DNA from: an uncultured Coriobacteriaceae bacterium
GTDB taxonomy: Bacteria; Actinomycetota; Coriobacteriia; Coriobacteriales; Atopobiaceae
Assembly (NCBI GenBank): GCA_902788705.1
Contig: CADALE010000004.1
Coordinates: 1 to 64,000 of the forward strand
DNA length: 64,000 nt
Direction of reading: 5' to 3'
Shown here: piece after piece, positions 461-14,951 of the stretch
Layout: every line of letters begins with the position of its first letter
Position numbering within the stretch: position 1 is the stretch's first letter
Program-made: the position numbers and the translations under genes
The notes under the pieces: generated by a model
The model's input: only the letters and a program-made list of their open reading frames with translations
What the model was told of the DNA's origin: nothing
Database searches by the model: none

Positions 461-2569
461 CTACCTGGCTAGCAGCTTCGTCAGTTTGCCGGAGGCAGTT
501 ATGACCGTTGTCCTCTTGGCTCTTGTCATCGCTACGTACACGAGGCTTCTCTCGGATTGCTGCACCTCTTCCTCATTGCCCTCTCTTCTTGCCTTGGAGA
601 CCAAATAGGTTGGGGGTACGATTCCGTCACTCATGTTTGCCAGGAATACGGTGTCAAACTCAAGGCCCTTCACACGGTGCATCGTGGCAATGCGCACGCC
701 ATCTATCGAGCGGTCGTCATCCCTTCTTGCCTTGAGCACCATCGTCTTGTGGCCGCGCTCCCTGAGCCCGACGGAATAATCATCCACCAATTTGTTTGTC
801 CTCAATACCACGCAGATATCCTTGGTCTCAAGGCCAGCCTTTTCCGCCACTGCGATTCGATCAGAAATCCAGTCAATCTCAGCGGTCGTATCGCGGAACT
901 CGTGCACCTCTGGCCGTTCTCCATGGATAAGCGATTGGGTTATCTCGTCCTCTACGTTTCCGTCGTCTGCCCCATCGAGGTCATCCCAACTGAGTCCCGC
1001 AATCACCGCGACTGCAGCCTTGCGGATTTCCTCCGGCGTGCGATAGTTGATGCGAAGCCTGCAGGCGCGCCCGCGTATGTTGATGCCGCAACGCGAAAGG
1101 ACTGCCTGCTTGCCATAAATGCGCTGGTGGGAGTCGCCCACGATGAAGATGTCGTTGGCGTGTTCCTCGCCCGCAAGCGCTCGGACCAGCTTGAAGGCTG
1201 GCGCAGAGAAGTCCTGCGCCTCGTCGACCACAACGTACGCATATGGCGCGGCCGTGGGATTCTGTTCCAACACGAGACGCGCGTCGCGCATGGCAGAGTC
1301 CACGTCACGAACTGAACGTTCGCGCATGAGCTGGCGGTAGTTCTCCACCACGCCCCAGATCTGCATGCGATCGCTGCGGCGCAGGCGTGAACCACGTCCC
1401 GCCCTCTTGGCATGGACATACGCTTCGAGCGTCAGCTCGTCCTGAGCGAGAATCACCTGAGCCCATTCGTCCGCGTAGAAGGAGGGCTCAAAGCCCAGCG
1501 TGCAGCCAGACTCAATGGCAGCATCCTGCCACAGCGACTCTAGCTCCTTCTGGTCATAGGAGATGCGGTATTCGAAGCCCTGCTCCTTGAGGAAGCGAGC
1601 GACCCAGGCATCAAGATTGAGGATGTCGATGCGCCGCAGCTCTTGGGTCGTGCAGAGCTTGCTCATGTTTGAACGGATATCGCTTGCAAGATTCGTGCTG
1701 AACGTCGTGAACAGTACGCGCTGGTCGCCCGTGCAACCCTTTGCAAGGGTCCGTGCCCTGTGCATGGCAACGACCGTCTTGCCCGTTCCTGCACCTCCCA
1801 GCACTCGGGCGGCACCGTTATAGGATCGGTCGACGATTGTGCGTTGTGACGGGTGGAGGAAGGTCCTCCACTTGTCGAGGGGCGAACGAAGGATGCTCGC
1901 TAGCTCCTCCTCACCCTCGACGACAACGAAGCTCCTGAGCGATGTGATGTTCTGCAATGCATTGCCAAGGTCGCTCGTGTTTTTGGGCGGATTGGTATCG
2001 GGTGCCATGACCTCGATGACCTCGTCGAACGAGAATCCGTTAGCCAGCCATTGCAGGCCTTCAAACGCATCGGCAGGTACGGAGGACGCCGCATGGTCGA
2101 GCTCGTCAAGCGAAGTGATCGCACGCACATAGCTTAGCTGCTCGCTGGGAACGCCTATCTTGGCCAGCTGCTCGTCGCTTACTGCAGCGAAGAGCGAGGG
2201 GGCTGCCTCGCTCTCAATGGGGGTTTGCTCCTCTACGACCTCATAGACCTGCAAAGAGCCGGTTACGGCGTTCACCGAGCAGCGACGCCTGCGTGCCCAC
2301 TCATACGCATCATCGTGATGGTCCACCCAAAGAAGCAGGTAGGTGCCCGTCTCCTGCTGGCGCACCACTATGCCACGATAGGTGTCGTCGATGCGCACTG
2401 AGAAGAACTTGCCGTCAGCATTGGCGATCTTTTCGTAATGGATGCCGGGCGAGGTAGGGTCCACTCGGAACTTGTTGATGAAGGTGCTTGTCTTTTGCTG
2501 GACCCGCTTGGGAAGCGCCGCGAATGCCGTGAGAAAGTCGGACGATATGGCTACGGTTGCTGCTGGCAT
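461..2569 (-). CDS. RelE-like domain fused to a UvrD/Rep-type superfamily 1 helicase
   Basis: 702 residues. Residues about 5-95 resemble RelE/ParE toxins (FLTAFAALPKRVQQKTSTF, then FFSVRIDDTYRGIVVR and a final YEWARR). The rest is a superfamily 1 helicase: Walker A GGAGTGKT at 258-265, Walker B VVVDEAQD ending near 453, and a C-terminal VYVAMTRAKR motif. It is expected to move on DNA with ATP; whether the RelE-like part cleaves RNA, binds DNA or is inert cannot be told from sequence. It starts 8 bp after the giant helicase stop, so the two are co-transcribed. Similar RelE-UvrD fusions occur elsewhere. A role in the same defence operon is inferred from position. Confidence 0.85.
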   Translation of the reverse strand: MPAATVAISSDFLTAFAALPKRVQQKTSTFINKFRVDPTSPGIHYEKIANADGKFFSVRIDDTYRGIVVRQQETGTYLLLWVDHHDDAYEWARRRRCSVNAVTGSLQVYEVVEEQTPIESEAAPSLFAAVSDEQLAKIGVPSEQLSYVRAITSLDELDHAASSVPADAFEGLQWLANGFSFDEVIEVMAPDTNPPKNTSDLGNALQNITSLRSFVVVEGEEELASILRSPLDKWRTFLHPSQRTIVDRSYNGAARVLGGAGTGKTVVAMHRARTLAKGCTGDQRVLFTTFSTNLASDIRSNMSKLCTTQELRRIDILNLDAWVARFLKEQGFEYRISYDQKELESLWQDAAIESGCTLGFEPSFYADEWAQVILAQDELTLEAYVHAKRAGRGSRLRRSDRMQIWGVVENYRQLMRERSVRDVDSAMRDARLVLEQNPTAAPYAYVVVDEAQDFSAPAFKLVRALAGEEHANDIFIVGDSHQRIYGKQAVLSRCGINIRGRACRLRINYRTPEEIRKAAVAVIAGLSWDDLDGADDGNVEDEITQSLIHGERPEVHEFRDTTAEIDWISDRIAVAEKAGLETKDICVVLRTNKLVDDYSVGLRERGHKTMVLKARRDDDRSIDGVRIATMHRVKGLEFDTVFLANMSDGIVPPTYLVSKARREGNEEEVQQSERSLVYVAMTRAKRTTVITASGKLTKLLAR

Positions 2570-5500: not shown

Positions 5501-8500
5501 AGGAAGTTGTAGGGGAACTTCGACCCGTCCTCCTTGCCGGGCGCCACTGCAAGCAAGCAGGGGCGAACGTGCGGTGGGACTATGGCATTGGCCACGCCCC
5601 GCTGCAGAATCCAGCTATCGAGGCAGAAGGCGACAAGCTGGCGCGCCAGGACGGCAGCCGCATGCAGGAACACGCGCGGCGGCTCAACGTTGCCCTCGAG
5701 CATCTCCTCTGGTGCGGCGTAGAAGTACATCCCCCGCGCATTGGCATCCGCCAACACGAGGCAGAAGGCGTTGCCGTCGCGTCGTCCTGCGCGTCCCACC
5801 CGCTGCAAGAACTGCGCCTGGCCCGGTGGCATGCCACAGAGCATGAGCGACGAGAGGTCTCCGATGTCGATGCCCATCTCGAGCGTCGGCGTACACGAGA
5901 GCACATTGGGATACCACGGCTTTGCGTCGGCGGCGGTCGCCTTGAACTGCCGCTCGAGCTCTTCGCGCTCGGTACGTTGGAGCAATCCCGTGTGCTCTGC
6001 GGCGCGCACGCGATCGCTCAGGCCACGGGTAAAGAGGCCACCGTAATAGTCGGGCCCCTGTTGCTCGCGCAGAGCCATTCTTCCCGGGCATCCTCCGTTG
6101 AGACAAGGGGAGCCGAGCCTGACGTCGATGTTGGCACCAGCCGCTTGCATGTGGGAGCCGCAGAGGGGGCATTCGAGCCGTGCGACGTCATCCACAACCC
6201 GCATCGCATTCTCTTTGATTCCATAGCACGCATAGCGCGTTTCACTGGCGAGCTCGACGAGAAGCCCTGCACGAGCGCAGGCGCGCGCCACGCAGTCAAT
6301 GGCTGCGGGTGGATTGAGCATATCCGGCAGGCACTTTGCCACGATGCGCGTCATGGTGTTGGAGCTCATGCTCAAGTACTTCTTGTTGTTACCCCGCTTA
6401 AGCAGAAACCTCGGAATTGTATCGGGTCCAAGGCCAGGCATATAGGGATTATGCTTGTGAGATATTGCCCAGCTGTTGCATCCGCAAGCCAAAAACTCAT
6501 CATAAGACAGATCGGCGATAGCCCCAGAATTGCGCAGCTCGTCAAGAAAGAGGACTACGAGTTTGCCCACATCTTCTCGTGAGGCCCTAACACCTTCCTC
6601 GTTGTGCAGGAGCTCACAAGCTTCGTCTACAGCCTTCTCTAACATAGATTCGTCATAGGCGATGGTTGCAACGCCGCTCTTCTCTAAAGTACGACCTATG
6701 TGACGTCTGAGGCCAAATTCAAGTATGGTCTCATAACGCATGCGCCTACTGATGGAGACGAGCAGTTGTCGAGCCCCTTCGCCGTCCGGCAGCCTGCCTG
6801 TATCCAACATGTGCTCGTAGTCGCGCATCCACAGATTGTTGGGCGCGAGGAAACGCGCAACATACTCCTCACGAGGCATGGCGCCCTTGAAGTGGAGCGC
6901 GAAGCCCTGGGCGAAATCGTCCAAGGCCATACCGTCCCCACCCTCGCCCAGCCACTGCGCCATTGCCGTGCGCAGGCCAAAGCGCCACGTACGTCCGTTG
7001 AAGAATCCCGCGCGATGCGAGGCATCCTGAACGTTGTCCGAGAAGGCGAGCGACTTGTTGTCATCGTCGAAGGCGCTGGCGAACATCTGGGACAGCGCGA
7101 CTTCCGCCTCGGTCGTATTGCGCAGGCCCATGAGCGAAAGCCCCTGGGGGCTGCCGCAATGCGGGCAAATGTATTGGCGCGATTCCGCGCTGCCCGAACC
7201 GCTGCGCGACGAGGTTGTGGGCTCCGAGATGAAGACGGGGATGCACTCAGTGTCACAGACGCCGCATGTATGCGAGCGCTCGCGCTCTCCCAGTACATTC
7301 TCCAAGGTTACGTGCAAGCAGTCTGGGCAGAGCCAGCCCACACGCAGGCTTTCCGGCCTTGGATCGTCGATGCTGCGCGGATACAGCGACACTATGTCTT
7401 CGCCCGAGCCAAAGTAGCTGTTGTAGAACGCGTCGAGGCTCTCGGGCTTGAGGTCCATGTCATGGTCGATGAGCGAGATCCATGCCGTCTGGCCACAGTC
7501 GCGGCAGTTGTGCAGGGGCAGGAAGTGCTTGCGCTCGTCTTGTTTGAGATTGATGGCGAGCTCAAAGCGCGTCTCGTCACCCTTCACCTCTCCGAGGAGG
7601 CGGGTAAGCTCGCGCGTCCAGAGCTGCGTCTGGACGGTCAGGAACGGTCGTGACCCTTCAGCTCGCGCATGGCTCACCAGCGCGACGAGCGCATCGATGA
7701 CCGTCTCGGGGCGTTCGATGTCACTCAGCCATGCATGCCTGTCTACGAGACGCTCAACGATCTCGCTCGGCTGGAAGAACGAGCCACCAACGGCCTCTAT
7801 GAGGTCGCAGAACAAGGTGTTCGACTTCAGCGCGGCCCCAAGCCTCTGCCGCGTCTCGTCATCTGAGGCATTGCTGCCCCGCATTGAGTCCATGAGTCTA
7901 TCGAGCGCCGCCTGCAGATACCCTTGCACGTCATTGGCGTTGACCAGCCTCTCGAGCTCGATGCACTGGGCCTCGCTCATGACGGGGTCGTCTTCCGGCT
8001 CGATTCCGCCCAAGAACTCGTCGACCGTCAGGCGGTCCTCGCCGATGACGGCTCCTTCATCGAACGGCTCTCCAAACACGTTCTGCGCATAGGAGAGCAT
8101 GCCCTTTCTGGATGCCTCTCCCGCGTCGCCCATGGTCGCGGAGGTGCCAATGCAGCAAAGGCTCCCCTGGGGAATGCGAAGCCGCGTCTTGAGGCGCCGG
8201 AGCAGGCATGCGAGATCGGTCCCCTGCGCTCCGTCGAAGGTGTGGATCTCGTCGACGGCAACGTACTTGAGGGGCGATACGTATGCGTCGGACTTCCATA
8301 TGTGGGTGTAGTCAGGCCGAATGAGCAGGTAGTCAAGCATCTTGTAGTTTGTGAGCAAGATGTCTGGCGGGTTGTTCTGCATAGTCTCACGATCGGTGAT
8401 GACCGTGTCGGCTCCCATGACGGGCGACCCCTTGCCCTTGTCGAGCCCACCCACGTACAGGCCAACGCTCACATTGCCCTTGAGGTTGGGGTTGTCCCAG

Positions 8501-10175: not shown

Positions 10176-13100
10176 CTACCCTTTGCCTGTACCGTACTTA
10201 TCAGCGAAGAAGGCCCATGCTGTACGGTAGTCCTCCACGCGGTCGCAGGTGTCGAAGGGTGCCACGTACTCGATGGTGCGCTCCACCGGTCCTCCGGGCA
10301 GGGTGTCGTCGATGTAGGTCTTGGGGTAGACGCCTGACGTGCAGGCATCTATGTCGCCAAAGGCGTTCTTGAACTCCGTGGGCTTGTACTTGAAGTTGCC
10401 CATGGCCTTGCGCGAGCACACCACACGGCCGTTGACGTCGTACCATGTCTCGCGCTCGTAGGACTGGAGCACCGAAAAGTCGAGCTGGTAGACGGTGATG
10501 AGCTGGTCGAGCGTGAGTCCGAGTGCCATCGAGACAAGTACGTCGAGCTCGACGAGTGCCTGCCGGCGCTGGTAATCCTTGCGCAGCGGCGTCTCCCAGC
10601 GCCACTCGTCCGTGAGGGAGGAGAAGGTGCTCGCGGGAAGGCGTGGGTCATCTTTTGCCCAGGAGTAGCTGGCGAACTCGGGCTGCCACACGTCACGCCA
10701 CAGGTCAGCGTAGTCGCGCGTAAGGCAATTGAGCAGGAGGGCACGGCAAGCGATTTCGTCGTTGAGGGGGCTGTCAGGTACGGGGAAGGACATCGTGGTT
10801 GCGTAGTTTACATGTCCTTTTCCATTGGCGCGCACGAAGTAGTCATAAGGAATCGAAGCGTAGCAGCCCGCCATCAAAGCCAGCAATTTCCCGCCGTAAG
10901 CGGGAAATTGCTGGTGTTTACCCGTGTCTCCAGACATGGGTACACACCATCCAAAGATGGTGTGTACCCATGTCTGACCCGGTGCTAGAATGGCTGCCTG
11001 CAGCGTTCGCTCACTGCTGCAACCAACGAACTCACGGTTCGCAAGCGCATAGTATGAAGTGAGTGGCTTCCCCCATGGAGTTTGAGGTACCCGCTTGCCC
11101 CACTCCTCAAGCGAGCATAATCTAGCGTATTTAGTTCTCACAAGATAATCTTCGCCTATTGATTCCAAATCAATCGCAAGATAATCATTGTTTGAATTGT
11201 ATTCTGTTTTTACACATTGCATAACTGGATTAAGAAGCCCAATGAATGGGGAGGCATAGATAGATTCACTTAAACAGCTGGGATGCGCGATGGAATCAAA
11301 AATGGTTCCGTCTTTTCGTGAGTTTGTTTCATTCCAGCATTGTGATGTCATTATGGTTATGCTTGTAGATCCCAACACATATTCTTGTTCGGCAAAAGCT
11401 CTCAGCACTTCAACCAATGATTGTGCATGTATTGATGGCACAAGCGTTTCTCCCAGCGACTCTCCACCAAATACTCTACGAAATACTTCGAGCTCACTTC
11501 CGGTGACATGAATGATTCTCGCAGGATGTCCTGTTAGGCACCAATTCCCATCGGAATCTCTAATCGCTGGCACCAATCCAATCCCATCGGATTCGTAAGA
11601 CTCGTCGATAGTGCTTGCAGAAAAAACGTTCGATATTGAATCGAAAGAACTCTGGCTACCATGAGGTCCGTATATATTGATTGAAAATCGCATTCTCCCA
11701 TGGTCATTTGTCCCTCTAAACAGATTGAGTTCGTTCTCAAATTGAAAATGCTTGCGATAGCGCAGGAACATCTCAGATTTAAGAAGGGCTGCGTTTGATT
11801 CTGAGAGTATGCCATCAGGATGAATGAAAGCTGTAATCCCGTGCGTAGCCAATGAATCCCATGCTCTAGGCAAGAAACAACGGTATAGGTTCGCCTTTTG
11901 TCCCTTGAGCAGCGGATAGTTCTGCACGGCGTTGAGGAAGCTCTTCTGTCCCGTCATCTTTACGTACTCGGACAGATACGTGTTACGTGCCGCAGGGTTC
12001 TCAAGCGCCTCGCCACGTTGCCGCGCCGTCTGGTCTGCCGAGAGCTTCTTGACGGCAAATCGTGGATCGTCGTCCGAGAGCACGGCCTGCTCGCTCCATT
12101 CCAACTTGATCCAGGGCGGGTTCCCTAGCAGCAGATCGAACCCGCCACGTGCCTCGAACACGTCTGCAAACTCCAGCTCCCAGTGGAAGAAGTGCTGGCG
12201 CTCGGAGATCTCTCTCACCACCGCGAGTCGCGGGAACTGGCTGCACAGCTTGTCGAGGTCTACCTCGTTCTCAAGACCGAACTGCAGCTGCATCTGGCGC
12301 AGCTCGCGGTCCTTGTCCGTCTGGAACTCCTCGCCCAAGTCCAGTTGCGTTTGCTGCATAGTCTGCTCTTCGACGCCCACCACGCCCGATACCGTGCCGA
12401 TGAGGATGAAGGACATGTCCATGAGGAACTCGTCGCGCGAGGGGAGTAGGTCCGCCTTGTCGATTGGCCAGAACCACAGCGAGCACCAGTAGTCCATCGC
12501 AAACTTGAGACGCGCATAGGGGCCGGCGTTGCGCGCATGTTCGCTGCGATAGAACTGGGCGAGCACCTGGTCCTTCTGGCGGATGCTCGTGCGGCTTGGC
12601 CGTGCCGCCTCGTCATGTCCGAAGCAATGGAGCTCATCGAGCGTCAGACGACGAAGCTCGCGCTGCTGCTCTACCTGCTTCTTCCACAGGTCGTCGACCA
12701 CGTAGGAGAGCTCGCGCAGGCTCTTGACCTCGTCGGTACGGTAGGGCTGCGTAAAGCCCTTCCGCCAGCGGTTGATATCAGCGATGGCCTGAGGTTCCAG
12801 ACCTTTGATGACCTTGTCCCCGTAGTCGGCCATGCCCGGGTCGCCTACCAAGAAGTGGTAGACGCGATGGCTCTTTGAGCAGCCCGTCTCGAAGCCCACG
12901 CGCTCAGGCTCGTGGTCGTACCAGCGGATGCCCTTGGTCTTGGAAGAGAGGTCCTTCTCGGTATATCCCTGCCGGCGTGCACCGATGAGCGAGTTGCCGC
13001 AGTGCAGCTGGTTGCCAAACCAGGGCACGTGACCGTCCTGGCTGATGGTGTTGAGCCAGAGGGATACCTCTCCCAGCTCCACGGCGATGGGGTTGAGGTC

Positions 13101-14951
13101 GATGCCGTACACATTGCGGTCGGCGATGAACATCTTGACGCGCTGCAGCTCGAGCTGTCGCTGGTCGTGCGGGATGGACTGTCCCAGCTCCTCCTGCTTC
13201 TTTGCGAGATACGCCTCTGCCAGCTGGTTGATCGCCTCGTTCAAGAATGCCGCCGAGCCCATGGCGGGCTCGCAGATGGTGAGGCTCAAGATCTGGTCGG
13301 CCGTCTTGCCCTGCAGGAGTTCCTTGAGAGCGTATTTGACGAGGCACTGCGTGAGGCTCTCGGGCGTGTAGTACGAGGCTGACTGCTCGCGCTCGCGCCC
13401 GGCCAGGCGATAGATGAAGTGTCCCTTCTCATAGGTCCTCAGCTCGCCGGCGCGAGGATCGGGCTTCTCGTAGCGCACCCTTTCGTCCTCGGTGTACTGG
13501 CCCAGCTCCGCCTCAGTGACGAAGTATCCCACGTCGAGCTCGTTGAATTTGTCCTTTGCCCGCTTGACCTCGTAGAGCGTCTCTTGGGCAATGAAGCCGC
13601 GATACGAGAGCAGGGCCTCGTACACGCTGCCCAGCTGGTTGATGCCGAGCGTACCGTAGCTCACGCGCTCGGAGCGTCCCTTTGCGGGGTGCGTGTAGCT
13701 CATCTTGTCGACGATCTGCAGCATGACGGAATCGCGCAGGCGTGCGCCGTCGATGAGTGGGGTGCGCTTGCGGTCGAAGATGTGTGCCTTGAGGGGCGGC
13801 ACGATAAAGACGTCGTTGGTGGAGCCGGCTGCGAGCAGGCTCTGGTACTGCTGCTCGTCTGTGGGGTAGCCGTCGTATACCAGCTCGCAGGCTATGCGGA
13901 GTGTGCGATCGATGTAGTCTGTGTCCGCTCCCGAAGCATCGATGCCGTCGCGGTGGCTCTCCGCAATGGTGCGGATGGACTCAAGCGAGTAAGACTTGAG
14001 ATAGGCCTCAGACTTGGTGGGCGCAAAGCCCAGGTCGGGTCGCGCCTCCATGAAGAGCAGGAAGAGCATGCGGTACATGTAGCGGAGGCATTCGATCGTA
14101 AGCTCGCCCGCGTCGATAGGGTCCTTGTCGAGGCCGTGGCCCTTGTTGTGCGTCCAGTCGTAGATGACCTCGTTGCCAAGTAGCTCCACGCACTCGCGCA
14201 GGGCGTATCGCAGCGAGTCGGACACCTCTGATGCGTGCTCGCGAGACTCGCGTTCGAGCTCGTCGAGCAGAATGTCGCCTGTCTGTGGGCAGAGGCTGCT
14301 GTATGCCAAGAACGTCGCCACCGCTTGGAAGGAGGATTCCTCGCGCCTGCGGAAGATCTCATCCATGTCGAAGGACAGGTAGCGCTTCTCTGGCCACTTG
14401 TTTCGGTCGACAAGCACCAGCTCCTTGGGACTGGCAAGGATGACGAAGCGGGCGGGATGTGCGACGTCGAGGAGCAGGACGTCAAGCGCCTCCTCGCACG
14501 AGAGGCCACAGGTGAGGGCATCCTCTTCTTCCGCAAGGCTCAGGGGCATCGTAGAGAGGAGGTCTTCCTCGCCCTTGGGCTGGCAGGCGATGACCCACAC
14601 GCGCGGCCTGTTGTCCGCGTCCCAATACTCTGCCATCAGGGGCACGAGGGTGCCGTCGGGAAGTGGTATCTGATCCGGCTGGGCTTCTGGGTACCCCAGG
14701 GCGTTGAGGTAGGCGTCCAGCATCTCGCGGGAGCTGTCTTGGGAACGACGCAGGCCGCCTTCTCCAAAGAGCCGGTAGTACAGCGTGCTGGTATCGCGCA
14801 GGTTCTGATAGGGCGTCCGCGCATCCGTGTCCTTGGCGACGGCCTTCCAGCCTTGGACGGCCTCCTTCACGCTCTGCTCGAAGTAGGTGGACAGATAGTG
14901 GTCCGTGTAGAACTCGTTGACGCTGCTGATGCCGGTGAGGTCTATAGCCAT
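10176..14951 (-). CDS. large Eco57I-type class I N6-adenine DNA methyltransferase (DrmMI-like)
   Basis: 1591 residues. SAM-binding motif I is EPAMGSAAFLNE near residue 560; catalytic motif IV is LLLGNPPWIK near 940, the NPPW form of N6-adenine methyltransferases. A long N-terminal domain (KRYLSFDMDEIFRRREE...) and a long C-terminal part, presumably for target recognition, surround the core. No separate nuclease motif is evident. Known members of this class protect self DNA in type IIG and class 1 DISARM-like loci. It starts three bases after the SNF2 helicase stop. DNA coding for residues about 1040-1290 is visibly AT-richer than the rest, and two perfect palindromes at 10880-10976 are translated in frame, adding a run such as WCVPMSGDTGKHQQFPAYGG. 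Confidence 0.88.
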   Translation of the reverse strand: MAIDLTGISSVNEFYTDHYLSTYFEQSVKEAVQGWKAVAKDTDARTPYQNLRDTSTLYYRLFGEGGLRRSQDSSREMLDAYLNALGYPEAQPDQIPLPDGTLVPLMAEYWDADNRPRVWVIACQPKGEEDLLSTMPLSLAEEEDALTCGLSCEEALDVLLLDVAHPARFVILASPKELVLVDRNKWPEKRYLSFDMDEIFRRREESSFQAVATFLAYSSLCPQTGDILLDELERESREHASEVSDSLRYALRECVELLGNEVIYDWTHNKGHGLDKDPIDAGELTIECLRYMYRMLFLLFMEARPDLGFAPTKSEAYLKSYSLESIRTIAESHRDGIDASGADTDYIDRTLRIACELVYDGYPTDEQQYQSLLAAGSTNDVFIVPPLKAHIFDRKRTPLIDGARLRDSVMLQIVDKMSYTHPAKGRSERVSYGTLGINQLGSVYEALLSYRGFIAQETLYEVKRAKDKFNELDVGYFVTEAELGQYTEDERVRYEKPDPRAGELRTYEKGHFIYRLAGREREQSASYYTPESLTQCLVKYALKELLQGKTADQILSLTICEPAMGSAAFLNEAINQLAEAYLAKKQEELGQSIPHDQRQLELQRVKMFIADRNVYGIDLNPIAVELGEVSLWLNTISQDGHVPWFGNQLHCGNSLIGARRQGYTEKDLSSKTKGIRWYDHEPERVGFETGCSKSHRVYHFLVGDPGMADYGDKVIKGLEPQAIADINRWRKGFTQPYRTDEVKSLRELSYVVDDLWKKQVEQQRELRRLTLDELHCFGHDEAARPSRTSIRQKDQVLAQFYRSEHARNAGPYARLKFAMDYWCSLWFWPIDKADLLPSRDEFLMDMSFILIGTVSGVVGVEEQTMQQTQLDLGEEFQTDKDRELRQMQLQFGLENEVDLDKLCSQFPRLAVVREISERQHFFHWELEFADVFEARGGFDLLLGNPPWIKLEWSEQAVLSDDDPRFAVKKLSADQTARQRGEALENPAARNTYLSEYVKMTGQKSFLNAVQNYPLLKGQKANLYRCFLPRAWDSLATHGITAFIHPDGILSESNAALLKSEMFLRYRKHFQFENELNLFRGTNDHGRMRFSINIYGPHGSQSSFDSISNVFSASTIDESYESDGIGLVPAIRDSDGNWCLTGHPARIIHVTGSELEVFRRVFGGESLGETLVPSIHAQSLVEVLRAFAEQEYVLGSTSITIMTSQCWNETNSRKDGTIFDSIAHPSCLSESIYASPFIGLLNPVMQCVKTEYNSNNDYLAIDLESIGEDYLVRTKYARLCSLEEWGKRVPQTPWGKPLTSYYALANREFVGCSSERTLQAAILAPGQTWVHTIFGWCVPMSGDTGKHQQFPAYGGKLLALMAGCYASIPYDYFVRANGKGHVNYATTMSFPVPDSPLNDEIACRALLLNCLTRDYADLWRDVWQPEFASYSWAKDDPRLPASTFSSLTDEWRWETPLRKDYQRRQALVELDVLVSMALGLTLDQLITVYQLDFSVLQSYERETWYDVNGRVVCSRKAMGNFKYKPTEFKNAFGDIDACTSGVYPKTYIDDTLPGGPVERTIEYVAPFDTCDRVEDYRTAWAFFADKYGTGKG
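10880..10914. repeat. perfect 15-bp palindrome inside the methyltransferase gene
   Basis: Arms of 15 bases (ccagcaatttcccgc and its complement) flank a five-base loop, cgtaa. The frame is open across it. Confidence 0.85.
10931..10976. repeat. perfect 21-bp palindrome inside the methyltransferase gene
   Basis: Arms of 21 bases at 10931-10951 and 10956-10976 flank a four-base loop, caaa. An upstream segment at 10919-10929 (tacccgtgtct) is a one-mismatch copy of part of the right arm and could pair with the left arm instead, giving two alternative folds. The reading frame continues through all of it. Confidence 0.88.

Follow-up and report, generated by a model that had tools for sequence, protein, structure and literature searches.

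Palindromes whose arms are both translated are known from the mitochondrial genes of nematomorphs, where perfect arms are translated into conserved protein and palindromes are dynamically gained and lost (PMC6649704). Mikhailov et al. took the all-or-nothing state of these palindromes as an argument for repeat conversion (PMC6649704). Template switching that homogenises arms and inverts spacers has been described in yeast genes (PMC8604942) and in the maintenance of RNA hairpins (PMC8794818). The gene studied here belongs to the ARMADA type II systems, whose operon order is ArmA-ArmB-ArmC-ArmD and whose ArmB is PglX-like (PMC12458937).

Here, we analyzed a window of 64,000 nucleotides (the whole stretch of DNA under study) from an uncultured Coriobacteriaceae bacterium, in which two perfect palindromes are translated within ArmB, an anti-phage DNA methyltransferase. 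In our preferred reading, to which we assign a probability of about 0.5, they represent an ancient type of coding palindrome located at both borders of the target-recognition domain (TRD) of ArmB, kept perfect by intramolecular template switching and, more tentatively, marking these borders as hot spots.

An ARMADA type II operon with an additional nuclease gene

Our analysis identified the ARMADA type II gene set in the window, including ArmA (SNF2/RapA), ArmB (PglX-like methyltransferase), ArmC (YprA) and ArmD (UvrD-like):

461..2569, minus strand: ArmD-like UvrD helicase, 702 aa
2578..8964, minus strand: ArmC, a YprA/DruE-like helicase with an MrfA Zn-binding domain, 2128 aa
8937..10076, minus strand: YhcG/DUF1016 PDDEXK nuclease, between ArmB and ArmC
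10176..14951, minus strand: ArmB, a PglX/Eco57I-like N6-adenine methyltransferase, 1591 aa
14955..17789, minus strand: ArmA-like SNF2/RapA helicase, 944 aa

This locus shares the operon order and the PglX-like ArmB with the described type II systems, and differs from them in the extra YhcG/DUF1016 gene between ArmB and ArmC (PMC12458937). At the N-terminus of the ArmD-like protein, the segment of the first ~230 aa is present and gave no Pfam match to a RelE-like domain. In other loci the gap between ArmB and YprA harbors varied genes, e.g., OLD-like with UvrD-like, AlbA-like or DUF262-like (as seen from the starts of the sequences only), and since its contents vary among loci, the ArmB-ArmC slot looks like an accessory-gene hot spot. 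Neither a common partner gene nor a shared recombinase was recognized from the gene starts in this gap among the relatives.

Two perfect palindromes are translated within ArmB

Protein-coding DNA would be expected to contain few perfect palindromes. The original prediction, made from the letters of this DNA, reported two of them 16 nt apart in an open frame, together with a third segment able to take the place of one arm, and our analysis confirmed each of these elements, both palindromes being in frame within the ArmB ORF:

10800..11960, minus strand: TRD-coding segment of ArmB, recognized by low GC and a drop in DNA identity to a congener
10931..10976, minus strand: large coding palindrome, perfect, with arms of 21 bp each (10931-10951 and 10956-10976) and a loop of 4 nt; encodes QTWVHTIFGWCVPMSG, about aa 1326-1341, a predicted beta-strand pair
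10910..10930, minus strand: third segment, a degenerate direct repeat of the large palindrome's first coding arm (17/21 positions, counted by eye)
10880..10914, minus strand: small coding palindrome, perfect, with arms of 15 bp each (10880-10894 and 10900-10914) and a loop of 5 nt; encodes HQQFPAYGGKLLA

Given this match between the third segment and the first arm, the second arm of the large palindrome could pair with either one. The probability of perfect arms, given the encoded peptides and the codon usage of the gene itself, is 1.4e-6 for the 21-bp and 7.5e-5 for the 15-bp arms, and the RNA strand folds here with z = -11. A 464-kb sample of the source genome, which served as background, contained a single other ORF-internal perfect repeat with arms of at least 14 bp, located 75 nt from the ORF end. 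An intergenic perfect palindrome of 36 bp with a 1-nt spacer is present on contig 3 of this genome (L075:15084-15156).

The residues encoded by the first arm of the larger palindrome had been described as native-looking, and in the protein alignment VHTIFG is identical in the relative L006. The original prediction had also taken homologues with the same residues and no palindrome as telling against its reading. A relative with similar residues does exist (L037, YVNTIFG) and, as it has no palindrome, it means that the peptide does not force one.

The palindromes sit near the 3' border of a TRD segment that was probably swapped. DNA identity to L004, a congener represented by a MAG, is mostly 90-98% in the flanks and falls to ~50% at aa ~1000-1400, and the GC content of the TRD-coding segment dips to 0.33-0.58 vs about 0.6, from which we infer that the TRD of this ArmB was replaced. 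A near-identical ArmB is encoded in L005 (JAFWMI010000094; 91% over aa 1-1212), where identity also drops in the TRD and the contig ends shortly after.

An AlphaFold2 model of aa 971-1591 was confident (mean pLDDT 90.7) and matched the folds of CamA, M.BseCI, BrxX/PglX and M.TaqI. By model residue numbers, the large palindrome corresponds to the predicted strand pair. The low-confidence stretch of the model (residues 371-380) coincides with the third segment and the small palindrome's first coding arm, placing this arm within or beside a low-confidence loop; the second coding arm of the small palindrome lies at the start of a helix. The palindromes that relatives carry on the N-terminal side map in the model to strands with which the methyltransferase core is taken to end. 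Together, the model, the drop in identity and the fold matches suggest that the palindrome sites are the borders of the TRD.

Coding palindromes recur at both TRD borders of ArmB homologues

We compared 60 homologous genes, mostly from metagenome assemblies (59 related loci came from the collection scan). At a threshold of at least 12 bp per arm, perfect inverted repeats were found six times at aa 1030-1120 (N site) and 10 times at aa 1310-1370 (C site), i.e., at the two TRD borders, these being counts of sequences, some of which are related to each other. Synonymous shuffles gave means of 0.12 and 0.03 for these regions, and 0.15 for both borders together. No such repeat was found in the remaining ~243 kb of the 60 genes, comprising the catalytic part at aa 1-1030 (173 kb; shuffle mean 0.40), the TRD interior (33 kb; 0.03) and the C-terminus (37 kb; 0.10). 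In the neighboring ORFs at these loci (446 kb), there was one perfect repeat with arms of at least 13 bp.

At the C site, perfect palindromes are present in L004 (22 bp), L006 (13 and 17 bp), L008 (19 and 18 bp), L014 (21 and 12 bp) and L016 (16 bp), and L009 pairs at 21 of 22 positions. The N-site palindromes cluster at aa ~1070-1115 in L004, L006, L014, L016, L019, L022, L042 and L044, with arms as short as 9-12 bp in some of them. Further genome searches added L118, an ArmB relative with a 13-bp N-site palindrome, and several new relatives with none. Both kinds occur independently, as the window's gene, L008 and L009 carry the C palindrome only, and L042, L019, L044 and L022 the N palindrome only. 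For single palindromes, the probability given peptide and codon usage ranges from 1e-3 to 7e-8; these values apply to pairs picked post hoc, which makes the shuffle comparison the safer figure. Fold strength relative to synonymous shuffles is very high at both borders (z to -12.9).

Most ArmB homologues have no palindromes. These are also absent from the ArmB genes of E. coli, which indicates that they are not needed for function. In a 97-kb control set of HsdS genes, repeats with arms of at least 14 bp sat at the ORF end or in short frames, and one 12-bp case lay inside an HsdS-sized frame. When viral contigs were searched for the pattern of the N-site arms, most hits were an unrelated methyltransferase motif (TSPPYYGLRDYGG), and one palindrome lay outside any frame of this kind, a result cautioning that the peptide can drive 9-bp arms; a protein search of the viral contigs found no relative.

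Two further observations concern ArmB genes in other assemblies. In JAISWZ, a single MAG, at least eight ArmB copies are located on separate contigs (L023, L027, L036, L039, L043 and L050-L052), which reflects either a chimeric bin or a real expansion, and these copies have no border palindromes of at least 12 bp. In contig 144 of G964 (L125/L127), the TRD of ArmB continues in another frame and is apparently frameshifted or split mid-TRD.

Arms change in pairs and follow the TRD lineage

The palindromes of the window's gene and of L004 have the same total length (46 nt); seven of 21 pairs differ in both arms, and no pair differs in a single arm. Similarly, L008 and L014 encode the same peptide, and three of their 19 pairs are replaced in both arms, with no one-sided change. 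Such strictly paired change could also come from selection for DNA structure. In a Watson-Crick search, which favors seeing perfect stems, the stems were perfect or nearly so when present and left no trace when absent (5-8 bp). Half-decayed stems were not found, relatives with similar TRDs having no palindrome at all, and the imperfect stems contain five mismatches in all, with no G-U among the five. In a single case, identical arms enclose a 3-nt spacer in exactly opposite orientations, GGA in L042 and TCC in L019. Overlapping competing hairpins, in which a middle segment pairs with either neighbor, are present in L006, L008, L014 and L016, the window's gene harboring a degenerate version (17/21). 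The ArmB of L019 (about 6029-7030) is missing ~36 residues near the N-side palindrome sites compared with L042, possibly a palindrome-linked deletion.

In the catalytic-domain tree, palindrome-bearing genes are scattered. When the tree is built from the TRD interior, leaving out the palindrome columns, six of the seven genes with a C-site palindrome form one group with moderate support (89/72), with L037 as sister and L016 apart. The trait hence travels with the exchangeable TRD lineage rather than with the catalytic domain, and crosses from Actinomycetota to Bacillota.

Arm-to-arm copying and alternative explanations

The palindromes thus occupy fixed alignment positions, change in pairs, are perfect, nearly so or absent, and are inherited with the TRD. 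These features are best accommodated by intramolecular template switching, in which a polymerase would copy one fold-back arm from the other, repeatedly making the arms identical and sometimes flipping the spacer. Such repeated switching would explain why the palindromes persist while the TRDs diverge. As distant relatives have different palindromes at the same two borders, a long-lived copying or structural process seems to be at work there, and not an assembly error. More tentatively, the TRD borders may become mutational or recombinational hot spots, helping new TRD variants to arise or spread. The template switching put forward in the original prediction stands in part, as the explanation that fits best, and its reading of the larger palindrome as a recent insertion does not. 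Generic template switching, however, does not explain the restriction to two borders and the absence elsewhere in the genes, which leaves a selected role open; a role of the palindromes in TRD exchange is possible but unproven.

It is conceivable, although rather unlikely, that the palindromes are selected cis-elements, i.e., DNA hairpins or cruciforms favoring the swapping of TRD modules among ArmB alleles via recombination or a host enzyme. They lie on either side of the exchanged segment and in no other part of the genes, the trait tracks the TRD, the window's own TRD seems to be a swap by its GC dip and identity drop, and alleles with diverged interiors show island-like DNA similarity at the palindrome sites. 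These islands, however, partly reflect conserved peptide motifs, and the N palindromes occur without the C ones and vice versa, the source genome and nearly all relatives checked yielded no second full TRD copy, no common neighboring recombinase was recognized, and most ArmB genes differ in TRD yet lack palindromes. We are equally hesitant about a wider claim, that the border palindromes direct TRD exchange or targeted variation, as a way of diversifying defense specificity, in more than one phylum, that does without a dedicated neighboring recombinase gene. Silent TRD cassettes or a phase-variable shufflon were rejected, as the source genome contains no extra TRD copy; a second ArmB-like gene is present in one of 14 relatives' genomes (G435). 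A diversity-generating retroelement was rejected too, the source genome (~90% complete) having no RVT_1 and no second copy of the region.

We find it doubtful that the palindromes are selected as mRNA structures, e.g., for ribosome pausing at domain borders or for control of translation or mRNA stability. Folding far above synonymous shuffles at both borders, the conserved place and the three-segment alternative pairing, whose competing hairpins resemble an attenuator, would agree with this. Against it stand the lack of wobble pairs among the mismatches and of half-decayed stems, relatives with similar TRDs and no palindromes whatsoever, and the absence from most ArmB homologues, so that such a structure is not required. 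Translational bypassing is argued against by the open frame and by the palindromes of L006, L008, L014 and L016, which encode aligned residues.

That this one gene was hit by a selfish element resembling the Rickettsia palindromic elements, or acquired ~20 codons in a new foldback insertion through a single template switch, is already disfavored and in our view improbable. The window's gene does have ~14 more alignment columns at the palindrome site than the Bacillota homologues, and the low-confidence loop of the model lies there. The ~20 inserted residues proposed by the original prediction nonetheless do not amount to a simple recent insertion, since L004 and L009 share 12 of these columns along with their own, partly different palindromes, and four further relatives are palindromic at the C site without added length in the protein alignment. 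Relatives moreover differ in sequence at the same site, their homologous palindromes are inherited with the TRD clade, and the window's locus is the only copy in its genome, which rules out a repeated mobile element. An assembly, amplification or library artefact, which had also been suggested, deserves hardly any weight: the draft genome has 48 contigs and foldback artefacts exist in general, but the reading frame is kept, and relatives from several separate projects bear different perfect palindromes, with paired differences, at the homologous place.

ArmB thus offers a natural system for testing arm-to-arm copying against selection for nucleic-acid structure. If palindromes do drive TRD change, this would be a new route for anti-phage systems to alter their specificity.

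Comparison with described systems

Our search of the open-licence literature found no report of palindromes in bacterial restriction, defense or ARMADA genes, which is weak evidence of novelty, and the main text on ARMADA does not mention them (PMC12458937). In two accounts of restriction-modification specificity genes (PMC4948785, PMC3983042), the TRD is likewise an exchangeable module; the pneumococcal case described there involves DNA inversions among several hsdS genes, in contrast to the window's ArmB, for which no extra TRD copy was found. Rickettsia palindromic elements, as described in PMC6649704, are likewise in-frame palindromes inside bacterial protein genes. However, those elements are transposable, with multiple related copies per genome, and lose repeat identity with time, whereas the ArmB palindromes are single copy (the source genome yielded the locus itself only), differ in sequence at one site and keep perfect pairing.

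With template switching in yeast (PMC8604942) and RNA hairpins (PMC8794818), the ArmB palindromes share arm homogenization, spacer inversion and multi-base paired change. Those events are scattered within one lineage or in RNA genes, whereas the ones in ArmB are recurrent, fixed in position and kept over deep divergence.

The closest precedent is that of nematomorph mitochondria (PMC6649704), with which ArmB has in common perfect translated arms, the dynamic gain and loss of palindromes, competing hairpins that overlap and involve direct repeats, and perfect-or-absent identity. As in those genes, perfect inverted repeats lie in a translated gene with both arms at conserved positions, and there is no excess of imperfect stems, in a small sample and with a search favoring perfect stems. 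In contrast to the nematomorph palindromes, those of ArmB are bacterial, have shorter arms (12-22 bp), are confined to one gene family and to two fixed borders of one domain, and are inherited with an exchangeable domain across phyla.
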